Positions 15,544-18,884 of a stretch of DNA of 64,000 bases are shown here, piece after piece (the first letter of the stretch is position 1; every line of letters begins with the position of its first letter). The position numbers and the translations under genes were made by a program. Source of the stretch: Erysipelotrichaceae bacterium NK3D112 (lineage in GTDB: Bacteria > Bacillota_I > Bacilli_A > Erysipelotrichales > Erysipelotrichaceae); the NCBI GenBank assembly GCA_000701725.1, contig JNJQ01000006.1:62001-126000 (forward strand), in the 5' to 3' direction. The notes beneath the pieces were generated by a model that was not told the origin of the DNA, did no database searches, and was given only the letters and a program-made list of their open reading frames with translations.

Positions 15544-16491
15544 ATGTCAGAAAAGAAATATGACAAGAAGGTTACGATCCGCGAAATCGTCCAATTCTTC
15601 AAATTTGAACAGCTGACCGGCAATGACGCATCACTGGACCGCTGGACAGTTGTACCTGATATTAACCGCCCCGGTTTTGAACTGTGCGGTTTCTATAAAA
15701 TGAGTGAACCGAGACGAATCGTTCTGATCGGCAACAAGGAGTCCGAATTTATCCGGACAATGAGTGAGGAAGACCAGCGGGCAAGATTTCCGATGTTAAT
15801 GGATGGACTGACTCCCGCAATCATCATCACAAGATCCAATCCGCTTCCGCCCATTCTGGCGGAGCTGGCACAGAAGAACAACTTTCCGATTCTGCGCACA
15901 TCCATTGAAACATACCGCACGGTAACGGATGTCATCACTTACCTGGATGAGAAACTCGCCCCTGAGGACACGATGAGCGGCGTGCTCATGAGCGTCTATG
16001 GCAAGGGTGTATTGTTAACCGGTGAAAGCGGCATGGGTAAATCCGAAACCGCGCTGGAACTGATCAAGAACGGCCAGGTCCTGATTTCCGATGACCGCGT
16101 CGATGTTCAGCATATCCACAACAGTGTGTACGGCCATTCCCCGGAAATCACCAAGGGACTGATGGAAATCCGCGGTATCGGCATCATCGATGTGGAAAAG
16201 ATGTTCGGTGCCTCGGCTTTGATGGATTCCACCAAAATCGATCTGGTGATCCATCTGGAGCCTTATGAATACCAGAGCGGGTTCAACCGCATCGGCGATG
16301 AGGCGGAACGCTTCACAAACATTCTCAATGTGCTTGTTCCGACCATCACGCTTCCGATCAGCGCAGGCCGCAACGTCGCGGTTCTGGTTGAATCGGCTGT
16401 CACAAACTTCAGACTGCAGGGGGCAGGCTACAACAGTGCCGAAGAGCTCCGCCGCAGATTCAGAGAATATGCGGGAAGAGAGGATAACTGA
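15544..16491 (+). CDS. hprK: HPr kinase/phosphorylase
   Basis: The protein has 315 residues. It phosphorylates HPr on Ser46 and reverses the reaction to PPi, so it links glycolytic state to catabolite control. The N-terminal domain is followed by Walker A GESGMGKSE (about 160-168), then DDRV, and the family signature EIRGIGIIDVEKMFG that holds the phosphorylase function. The ATG at 15544 has ACGGAGGT upstream. It leads an operon whose next gene overlaps closely (2-nt gap). In Bacillus the same position is occupied by lgt and the pyrophosphatase gene ppaX, which fits the fused gene found here. Confidence 0.97.
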   Translation: MSEKKYDKKVTIREIVQFFKFEQLTGNDASLDRWTVVPDINRPGFELCGFYKMSEPRRIVLIGNKESEFIRTMSEEDQRARFPMLMDGLTPAIIITRSNPLPPILAELAQKNNFPILRTSIETYRTVTDVITYLDEKLAPEDTMSGVLMSVYGKGVLLTGESGMGKSETALELIKNGQVLISDDRVDVQHIHNSVYGHSPEITKGLMEIRGIGIIDVEKMFGASALMDSTKIDLVIHLEPYEYQSGFNRIGDEAERFTNILNVLVPTITLPISAGRNVAVLVESAVTNFRLQGAGYNSAEELRRRFREYAGREDN

Positions 16492-16493
16492 GT

Positions 16494-17840
16494 ATGCGGT
16501 TTTTTCCTGACAGCTATACATTCCTGAGCATCGGGTCATTCGCCCTGCGCTGGTATGCGATCACCCTGATCGCGGGTGTGATCGCGGCATATCTGCTGAC
16601 CTCAAAGGGCATGAAATCACATGGCTATGATGTCGACACCGTCGATGAAATGCTGGTTCTGTGCATGATCGGGGGCGTGCTGGGAGGCAGAATCTTCTGG
16701 GTGCTGGAAAATCTTCCGGAATACCTGAAATACATTCCGTATATCTTCGCATTAAGCGATGGCGGATTTGATATTCTGGGAACGATCGTCGGCATCAGTG
16801 CGATGATGTTCTTCTACTGCACGCGCAGACACATGTCCACATTGCGCACAATGGATGTCGTCATGCCCTCACTTCTGCTGTTTGCGGTGATTGCCCGGTT
16901 CGGCAGATCCTTCGCCGATGTGGCGATCTGGTTTGCCAACGGCATTGACCTGATCGGCTTCCTGGTGCTCTACTTCTTTGTGCGTCCTTATCACGAGGGC
17001 AGAAGACGCGGCGACGTCGCGGCGATCGGCTTCATGTTCATCGCTCTTTCCAGACTGATCTGCATGGTGCTGCGCTGGGATCCGACCGCAAAGGGTGTCA
17101 TGATTCCGGCTGTCTGTGTCGAACTGTTCGGTATTGCCCTCTACTATGTCGTGCACAAAAGAAGACCGACCAAACCGATTGTGCTGTTTGATCTGGACGG
17201 AACCATCATGGATACAAGATCGATGGTCATCCAGTGCTTCAAATATCTGTATATGAGATACAACGATCCGCTGAACTTCACCAAGGACAAGCGCAATCTC
17301 GTATTCCGCCTTCCTCTGAAAGAGGCGATGGAAAAGCTTTTCCCGGATCAGGATGCGGACCAGCTGTGCGATGAATACAGAAAGTATCAGAGCTCCTTCT
17401 CATGGAGTGATTCCGTATCGCTGTTCCCCAATGTGAAAACCACACTGGATGAACTGTGGCAGAACGGATACGTGCTCGGCATTGTATCAACCAGAATGAC
17501 CTCCTCATGCGAGTCATGGCTGCGCCAGCTGGATCTGTCCCATTGTTTCGGAACCATTCTCGGCCGTGATCTTTATACCGATCTCAAACCGCAGCCGGGC
17601 GGAATCCTGTATGCCGGCAGAAAACTCAAGCGCGGACATGATTCCTGCGTTTATGTCGGGGACGGGCTGAATGATATCCGTGCCGCCAAGGCAGCCGGTG
17701 TCTACTCGGTCGCATTTATCAGCGATCCCTCCAAACGGGAAGCGATTGAGGAACTGAATCCGAACCGGATCATCACCGATATGAGTGAACTGAAAGAACT
17801 GCTCAATGAAAATCATGAATGGGCAGATGAGAACTGCTAG
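16494..17840 (+). CDS. Lgt-like membrane domain fused to a HAD phosphatase (probable PpaX type)
   Basis: The protein has 448 residues in two parts. Residues 1-222 resemble prolipoprotein diacylglyceryl transferase: the RWYA start, IGGVLGGRIFWV, about six membrane segments. The Lgt core is damaged: GGLSxHGG is GGFDILG (90-96), GRxGNFxNxE is ARFGRSFADVA (134-144), the HPxQLYE segment is missing, and the late Glu is gone. Residues 228-448 are an intact HAD domain: FDLDGT (D233, D235), a motif II Ser/Thr in VSTR, and GDGLND near the end. In Bacillus hprK-lgt-ppaX are neighbours, so this looks like a fusion of that order. I infer a membrane-tethered phosphatase, perhaps a pyrophosphatase that removes PPi made by HprK; the lipid transferase activity is probably lost. 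The ribosome site GAGAGGA lies within the end of hprK. Confidence 0.8.
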   Translation: MRFFPDSYTFLSIGSFALRWYAITLIAGVIAAYLLTSKGMKSHGYDVDTVDEMLVLCMIGGVLGGRIFWVLENLPEYLKYIPYIFALSDGGFDILGTIVGISAMMFFYCTRRHMSTLRTMDVVMPSLLLFAVIARFGRSFADVAIWFANGIDLIGFLVLYFFVRPYHEGRRRGDVAAIGFMFIALSRLICMVLRWDPTAKGVMIPAVCVELFGIALYYVVHKRRPTKPIVLFDLDGTIMDTRSMVIQCFKYLYMRYNDPLNFTKDKRNLVFRLPLKEAMEKLFPDQDADQLCDEYRKYQSSFSWSDSVSLFPNVKTTLDELWQNGYVLGIVSTRMTSSCESWLRQLDLSHCFGTILGRDLYTDLKPQPGGILYAGRKLKRGHDSCVYVGDGLNDIRAAKAAGVYSVAFISDPSKREAIEELNPNRIITDMSELKELLNENHEWADENC

Positions 17841-17848
17841 GAGGTTTT

Positions 17849-18112
17849 ATGAGCAGAATTGATTACAGGGAAGCGGTCCTGTTCCGCAAGAAAGAATACA
17901 ACCGCAACGGCTGGAACGAGCTGGTCATCAAAGCGTCCGATCTGATTGCATTAAGCGGTGAGAAGGATGTGCATGCGGTTTGCGAAGGCATGCTGAAGAA
18001 TATGCTGGAAGGCGACAGAATCGTGAACGGATCAGCCGATCATCCTTCAAAGGATCTCGAAATTGCCTATTATTGTGACAATCTGAGCGAAAGCCGCAGA
18101 CGGCTGTATTGA
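17849..18112 (+). CDS. Small soluble protein of unknown function in the hprK operon
   Basis: The protein has 87 residues. TAGGAGGT precedes the ATG and the gene is tightly packed between the Lgt-like/HAD fusion (8-bp gap) and the Cof HAD gene (1-bp gap), so it is a real operon member. The sequence is mixed alpha/beta in look, charged, with no membrane segment, no Cys pair and no motif that I recognise. Its context suggests a link to the phosphatases or HPr kinase beside it, but nothing in the sequence proves that. Confidence 0.65.
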   Translation: MSRIDYREAVLFRKKEYNRNGWNELVIKASDLIALSGEKDVHAVCEGMLKNMLEGDRIVNGSADHPSKDLEIAYYCDNLSESRRRLY

Positions 18113-18113
18113 T

Positions 18114-18884
18114 ATGAAAAAATATTTCTTCTTCGATATTGACGGAACTCTCACCAACATCCATACCGGAAAGCTTGTGGAAAGCGGACTGGAAACATTG
18201 AGAAAACTGGAAGAGAACGGTCACTTTGTGGCAATCGCCACTGGCAGGGCATATTACAAAACCGTCAAGGCTGCCCATGATGCAGGTGTGCACAACTTCG
18301 TGGCCAACGGCGGAGCGGCTCTGGTCATCAATGATCAGTTGGTCAAAAACAGTCCGCTGGACAGGGATAAGGCCCTTCAGGTGATTCATGAGGCGGACGA
18401 GCTCGGCTATGGAATCCTTGTGGCAGTCAATGACAGCATCGATGTTGTCATGCGTGATCACCGCTTTCTCGAACAATTCGGTGAAAGAAGGGAACCGACC
18501 AATTATATTTATCAGCCGGAAATGGAATATGATGATCTGAAAGATATCTACAAGATCTACATCTCCATTCCGGAGAGCGAGGAATACCGCCTGAAAAACA
18601 GGGATATCCTCGGTCATATCCGCATGGGTGCCGACTATTTCTGGTATCAGCACGATTCCAAGGATCAGGGCATCCGCGATATGATGGAATACCTTGGCGC
18701 TGACATCAAGGATGTCGTGGTCTTCGGTGACGGTGAAAATGATATGGTCATGTTCCGCAAGGAATGGACATCCATCGCCATGGGCAACGGAGACAAGCGC
18801 CTGCTTGAGCTGGCGGACTATATCACGGATGCGGCGGAAGATGACGGCATCCGCAACGCCTGCAAACATTACGGATGGATCTGA
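18114..18884 (+). CDS. Cof-type HAD-IIB family hydrolase
   Basis: The protein has 256 residues. Motif I is FFDIDGTLT (D8 and D10), the cap is of the C2 type, and motif IV is VFGDGENDMVMF. These are features of the Cof/YidA subfamily, which dephosphorylates sugar phosphates, flavin precursors and similar small molecules. The substrate cannot be read from the sequence. It starts one base after the stop of the small unknown gene and ends the hprK operon with a terminator. Two HAD phosphatases therefore sit in one HPr-kinase operon. Confidence 0.88.
   Translation: MKKYFFFDIDGTLTNIHTGKLVESGLETLRKLEENGHFVAIATGRAYYKTVKAAHDAGVHNFVANGGAALVINDQLVKNSPLDRDKALQVIHEADELGYGILVAVNDSIDVVMRDHRFLEQFGERREPTNYIYQPEMEYDDLKDIYKIYISIPESEEYRLKNRDILGHIRMGADYFWYQHDSKDQGIRDMMEYLGADIKDVVVFGDGENDMVMFRKEWTSIAMGNGDKRLLELADYITDAAEDDGIRNACKHYGWI

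Follow-up and report, generated by a model that had tools for sequence, protein, structure and literature searches.

PpaX (YvoE) is the pyrophosphatase of the Bacillus hprK operon, in which it takes its place after hprK and lgt, and Lgt itself is a drug target. In the E. coli Lgt (PF01790; 5AZB), function is lost in mutants of H103, R143, N146, R239, Y235, and R246, and the enzyme also requires its head domain (PMC4728403, PMC13251419). R143 and R239 line the lipid site of this enzyme (PMC4728403), and glycerol-1-phosphate is a known by-product of Lgt (PMC4728403, PMC8048626). Here we describe a locus in which an Lgt-derived membrane part and a PpaX-like HAD phosphatase are joined in one protein directly behind hprK. 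The locus lies in the window, a 64,000-nucleotide stretch of DNA from the Erysipelotrichaceae genome G000 (3.15 Mb, 96% complete). Our literature searches on the Lgt::HAD fusion, on PpaX together with HprK and lgt, and on Erysipelothrix lgt, which covered mostly open-access papers, returned no description of this fusion.

An Lgt::HAD fusion in the hprK operon

All features of the operon lie on the forward strand. The hprK gene (15544-16491) encodes an HPr(Ser) kinase/phosphorylase of 315 aa that matched TIGR00679 with 338 bits, against a cut-off of 240, as well as the N- and C-terminal Pfam domains. Its stop codon is followed after 2 nt by an open reading frame of 448 aa (16494-17840). As the earlier note had claimed, this single uninterrupted frame combines an Lgt-like membrane part with an intact HAD domain. 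The membrane part comprises residues 1-222 (16494-17159); within it, residues 10-138 matched Pfam LGT with 87 bits (cut-off 24.9), a match that spans positions 3-130 of the 240 in the profile and hence only its first half. The HAD part comprises residues 226-448 (17169-17840), with a Pfam HAD_2 match of 135 bits at residues 230-407. AlphaFold2 modelled the whole protein with a pLDDT of 89.9 and a pTM of 0.83. The operon continues 8 nt after the stop of the fusion with an 87-aa open reading frame (17849-18112) that is conserved in the genus and has no Pfam or NCBIfam match; tblastn within the genus placed its homologues near the HAD gene or rapZ (L214, L215, L216, L218, L249). A separate gene for a Cof-type HAD-IIB hydrolase follows (18114-18884; TIGR00099, 125 bits with a cut-off of 137).

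The frame of the fusion is conserved in other assemblies at 97, 88, 83, 83, and 61% identity, so it does not stem from a sequencing frameshift in the window. The same fusion is encoded by 29 other genomes of the genus, which together with these assemblies rules out a frameshift or assembly artefact and also the idea that the fusion is unique to the window. In total, this short fusion was found in 30 of the 70 genus genomes, in one case split between two contigs. Rumen MAGs, RUG10685 (97% identical) for instance, and MAGs labelled Solobacterium are the closest named records, and Bulleidia extructa is one of the next relatives.

Fold and lost residues of the membrane part

Structure comparison of the whole model (VIA-align) listed HAD chains only, and the membrane part was therefore folded alone (pLDDT 86.3). 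The AlphaFold2 model predicted seven helices (residues 20-42, 47-72, 94-111, 116-139, 144-163, 174-193, and 203-222) in the seven-helix fold of Lgt, and the only significant match among solved structures was 5azb, the E. coli Lgt, at Z 17.2 across 216 residues, with the next match at 6.5. The even-numbered loops carry 12 Lys/Arg and the odd-numbered loops 6, which would fit a membrane part with its N-terminus outside and its C-terminus inside. A C-terminus inside places the HAD part in the cytoplasm; we infer both this orientation and the membrane location of the HAD part in the cell.

The window protein shares with E. coli Lgt the seven-helix body, the order of the helices, and the positions of R73, D129, and the two lipid-site arginines R143 and R239; Y26 is retained as well. 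It differs from the E. coli enzyme in its C-terminal HAD part, in the presence of another Lgt in the genome, and above all in its active site. H103 of the HGGL motif, a position at which Q, Y, or W would also have counted, is replaced by L, and the further changes are N146 to R, N149 to A, E202 to A, Y235 to I, and E243 to M. E151 and G154 are deleted, so that the GRxGNFxNxE signature with its N146 and E151 is absent. They fall within a missing stretch of 31 residues, made up of NFxNxEAxG and the head segment, which is lacking directly after 'RFGR', between G137-R138 and S139-F140 (16902-16913). In an alignment of 33 membrane parts, the degenerate sequences all share one boundary for this deletion, after 'RxG[RK]' (or RIAR) in every row from the genus, and N146 and E151 are absent from all 29 full-length genus fusions. 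The losses read earlier from this frame (the His loop, the N and E of GRxGNFxNxE, the HPxQLYE stretch, and the late Glu) were thus right, with the 31-residue deletion to be added to them. None of the Lgt catalytic residues was found displaced to a shifted position in the alignments.

Because several of the residues that E. coli Lgt needs are gone, as is the head, diacylglyceryl transfer by the window fusion is very unlikely. The full-length Lgt equivalog model TIGR00544 gave it 70.2 bits, below the cut-off of 118.9, compared with 218.5 bits for an intact fusion (L167). Annotating such frames as Lgt, as a passed Pfam cut-off would suggest, would be wrong for catalysis, which is of consequence for an enzyme that serves as a drug target.

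History of the fusion and a second Lgt

Outgroup genomes from families f13 and f18 (L241, L242) encode HprK, Lgt, and the HAD by three separate genes, and in the sister family f2 hprK and lgt stand together unfused. Within the family of the window, an intact Lgt::HAD fusion of about 485-500 aa occurs in 77 of the 89 genomes sampled outside the genus, each at least 95% complete, where it is mostly the sole Lgt; the genomes are mostly MAGs, in which contig ends can hide genes. The HAD tree and synteny make the window protein a member of this group: like the fusions of Holdemania, Erysipelothrix, and Holdemanella, it is the same gene in the same place after hprK and carries an orthologous HAD. 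Unlike it, the intact fusions are longer, are mostly the only Lgt of their genome, and have a complete Lgt active site, in which only His103 is often Gln. R143, N146, N149, E151, E202, Y235, R239, E243, and R246 are conserved in all 72 intact fusions sampled. Position 103 is Q in 42 of these 72 sequences, H in 25, and Y in 5, with the remaining active site complete; in E. coli, H103Q fails to complement (PMC4728403).

The genome of the window holds a second, stand-alone Lgt of 256 aa (G000:C5:97641-98354), which answers the question in the earlier note of whether another lgt is present. This Lgt belongs to the same Pfam family as the window fusion and is full length, but it differs from the fusion in standing alone, in its signature residues, and in its place on a separate branch of the Lgt-domain tree (SH-aLRT 97). 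Its signature, GRIGCFFAGCCYG, replaces GRxGNFxNxExxG and has cysteines for N146 and E151 (N146C, E151C). A separate strong Lgt match was present in all 30 fusion-bearing genomes of the genus, and every one of these sequences that was read is of the Cys type. The Lgt of Leptospira, which likewise carries the N146C change, is partly functional in E. coli (PMC13251419). We infer that the Cys-type Lgt took over lipidation. Two genus genomes whose HAD has lost its membrane part, G166 and G173, hold a second divergent Lgt homologue of about 233 aa (L217, L219), which is of the Cys type in L217.

Several genomes combine these elements in other ways. G040, G058, and G091 have an intact fusion together with a Cys-type Lgt, the state to be expected before decay. 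In G053, a degenerate fusion is accompanied by a Cys-type Lgt, and G003, which also has a Cys-type Lgt elsewhere in its genome, is a further case: with the window's genus, these make three lineages in which a dead or unrecognisable fused membrane part occurs beside a Cys-type Lgt. The post-hprK protein of G003 (L291:2905-4143) is 413 aa long, and its seven hydrophobic segments, fused to a HAD, are unmatched to Lgt. No HAD was found after hprK in the DNA read from G039 and G089, and G016 and G056 are near-complete family genomes (98-99%) without an Lgt or HprK match.

In many of the other genomes of the genus, the HAD is a solo protein. At all 18 loci examined, such a solo HAD follows hprK within about 55 bases and lacks the membrane part. 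In the HAD tree, the HADs of the genus form one clade (SH-aLRT 96) that lies within the fused clade. Solo HADs occupy two places in this genus clade, which implies at least two losses of the membrane part. In the Lgt-domain tree, the degenerate clade has a long branch that does not fall among the intact fusions. We do not adopt the origin outside the fused clade that this tree draws for the degenerate domain, given the long branch and the disagreement of the HAD tree; since the HAD tree nests the degenerate clade, we read the Lgt-tree placement as an artefact of fast evolution.

Together, these data suggest a history in which lgt and a ppaX-like HAD gene, adjacent in the operon after hprK, would have been fused in an ancestor of the family. 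Most of the family has kept the fusion as its sole Lgt, while the genus of the window holds a second, Cys-type Lgt and its fused Lgt has lost one 31-residue catalytic and head segment together with its other catalytic residues. Living relatives show all of the steps, from an intact sole Lgt through an intact and then a dead fusion beside a Cys-type Lgt to loss of the membrane part, and the case is one of stepwise change from a membrane enzyme to a pseudoenzyme. We are highly confident of this evolutionary part of the explanation, namely a dead Lgt that has retained its fold in a genome with another Lgt.

Constraint on the membrane part and possible roles of the phosphatase

Where it is kept, the membrane part is under purifying selection. 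Pairwise Nei-Gojobori estimates of dN/dS for the pseudo-Lgt part were 0.03-0.14 in close pairs, values that reject a pseudogene. The 29 full-length genus fusions contain no frameshifts or stops and are nearly constant in length (most 447-448 aa), and in the pair G000/G184 the pseudo-Lgt parts are 85% identical, compared with 81% for the Cys-type Lgts of the same genomes. The degenerate set has also gained conserved residues that the intact set lacks: W69 and D89 (97% each), Y80 and Y83 (86%), an arginine, R138, at the place of N146 (83%), and E72 (72%). R66, G90, G91, D121, R135 (equivalent to R143), and R172-G173 are conserved in both sets. This shift in conservation would fit a changed role better than simple decay.

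These patterns make it improbable that the membrane part is a functionless relic on its way out, tolerated by the HAD part. Such a relic might be suspected from its loss at least twice in the genus and from its rate, since it evolves faster than the HAD part (e.g., dN 0.168 versus 0.077), the reverse of most intact fusions, in which the Lgt part is the slower one. However, the low dN/dS, the open frames of near-constant length, a level of conservation equal to that of the Cys-type Lgt, and the newly conserved residues all argue against it, as does the retention of a hydrophobic multi-helix part in three lineages after the Lgt residues were lost.

The same residues raise the alternative that the Lgt fold was reused after catalysis ended, as a transmembrane receptor for phosphatidylglycerol or an extracytoplasmic ligand, which would control the fused phosphatase beside HPr kinase from across the membrane. 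R143 persists in 28 of the 29 genus fusions (28 of 30 in the degenerate set) and R239 in 22 of the 30 degenerate forms even though the other catalytic residues are gone, and the newly conserved acidic and aromatic positions of the outer loop that joins helices 2 and 3, with the arginine at the N146 position, would suit a binding site. R239 has nevertheless disappeared from about a quarter of the sequences, and the conserved residues may merely hold helices together. We consider such a sensor quite unlikely; if it were real, it would link membrane lipid state to carbon catabolite control.

The earlier note had proposed that the lipid transferase was turned into a membrane anchor or a ligand-binding domain for the phosphatase. 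This is a fair reading of the present protein because the membrane part is under purifying selection, and the catalytic residues of the Lgt are lost while the seven helices and the HAD motifs are kept. The proposal does not hold for the origin of the fusion, which was not made for anchoring: it is old in the family, where it has a complete active site, and the Lgt residues were lost only later, in lineages that hold a Cys-type Lgt. We think it somewhat probable that the pseudo-Lgt tethers a PpaX-like phosphatase to the membrane. The seven-helix body would have been kept because of some remaining service to the HAD, most likely that of holding it at the cytoplasmic face of the membrane, with the C-terminus inside, and the putative lipid pocket around R143 and R239 may be vestigial or reused. 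Against an anchor, the membrane part is dispensable, having been lost at least twice while hprK and the HAD stayed together.

The motifs of the HAD part are intact (FDLDGT, the motif II S/T, KP, and GDGLND), and D233, D235, T237, K365, D390, and D394 are invariant in 49 HAD sequences. Its fold, a Rossmann fold with a cap, matched phosphatases of HAD subfamily I with Z up to 25.3, and the subfamily signature (DxDGT, S/T, K, GDxxxD) is present. PpaX was the best NCBIfam model for every HAD tested. On this model (NF009804), the separate HADs of the outgroups scored 227 and 251 bits, intact fusions 178-191, solo HADs of the genus 130-140, and the window HAD 114, below the equivalog cut-off of 218; we therefore call it PpaX-like rather than PpaX. 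The window HAD shares with PpaX (YvoE) the top NCBIfam model, the subfamily I fold, and the operon place with hprK and lgt, the fusion lying directly after hprK. It differs in being fused to an Lgt part, in its score below the cut-off, and in that its activity is a prediction.

The genome encodes HprK and an HPr with a Ser46-type site. The removal at the membrane of the PPi produced by HprK, which the earlier note had put forward as one possible HAD reaction, is not supported as stated: the PpaX score is below the cut-off, about half of the genus keeps hprK and the HAD without the membrane part, and lgt and the HAD are also paired or fused where HprK is not detectable. The genome also encodes two CBS-type DHH-DHHA2 proteins that have a family II pyrophosphatase architecture, so the window fusion is not necessarily required for PPi removal; a membrane pyrophosphatase was not found in this genome. 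The two proteins (L264 and L265; 558 and 545 aa) are of the CBS-DRTGG type, an architecture of regulated family II pyrophosphatases. In the explanation that we favour, the HAD most likely clears a small phosphorylated product, for which PPi from the phosphorylase reaction of HprK would be the leading candidate. This unproven substrate is the weak point of the explanation.

The HAD could instead serve Lgt rather than HprK, by dephosphorylating, in intact fusions, sn-glycerol-1-phosphate, the leaving group of the Lgt reaction, or another product of lipid turnover, and have outlived its partner in the genus, which we regard as unlikely. Lgt and this HAD are found paired more widely than is either combination with HprK, and this leaves room for such a role in lipoprotein synthesis (e.g., on glycerol-1-phosphate). 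Lgt::HAD fusions outside the family were found next to hprK in f11 and f21 (L279, L280) and also in f6 and f8 (L281-L283, L286), whose relatives have lgt and HAD as separate, overlapping neighbours (L284, L285, L287, L288); no HprK match was found in the f8 genomes tested or in the f6 genomes G289 and G321. On the other hand, glycerol-1-phosphate is described as leaving Lgt by a periplasmic exit (PMC8048626), whereas the HAD is predicted to be cytoplasmic. In the genus, moreover, an intact HAD has remained beside hprK despite the loss of the Lgt residues or of the entire Lgt part, and the 3.7-kb locus of the Cys-type lgt showed no neighbouring HAD gene.

The fused state requires five changes on the Lgt tree, at least four of them forced by well supported branches, as would be expected if Lgt and HAD belong together. 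This points to fusion or fission on several occasions and to a link between the two, and the recurrence of the pairing across the class raises the question of whether PpaX-like phosphatases serve HprK or lipoprotein biosynthesis. A different outcome was seen at a locus of G037 (L244), and also in G081, where hprK is followed by a 365-aa Lgt with a C-terminal extension unrecognised as HAD; there, it is apparently the HAD, not the Lgt, that decayed.
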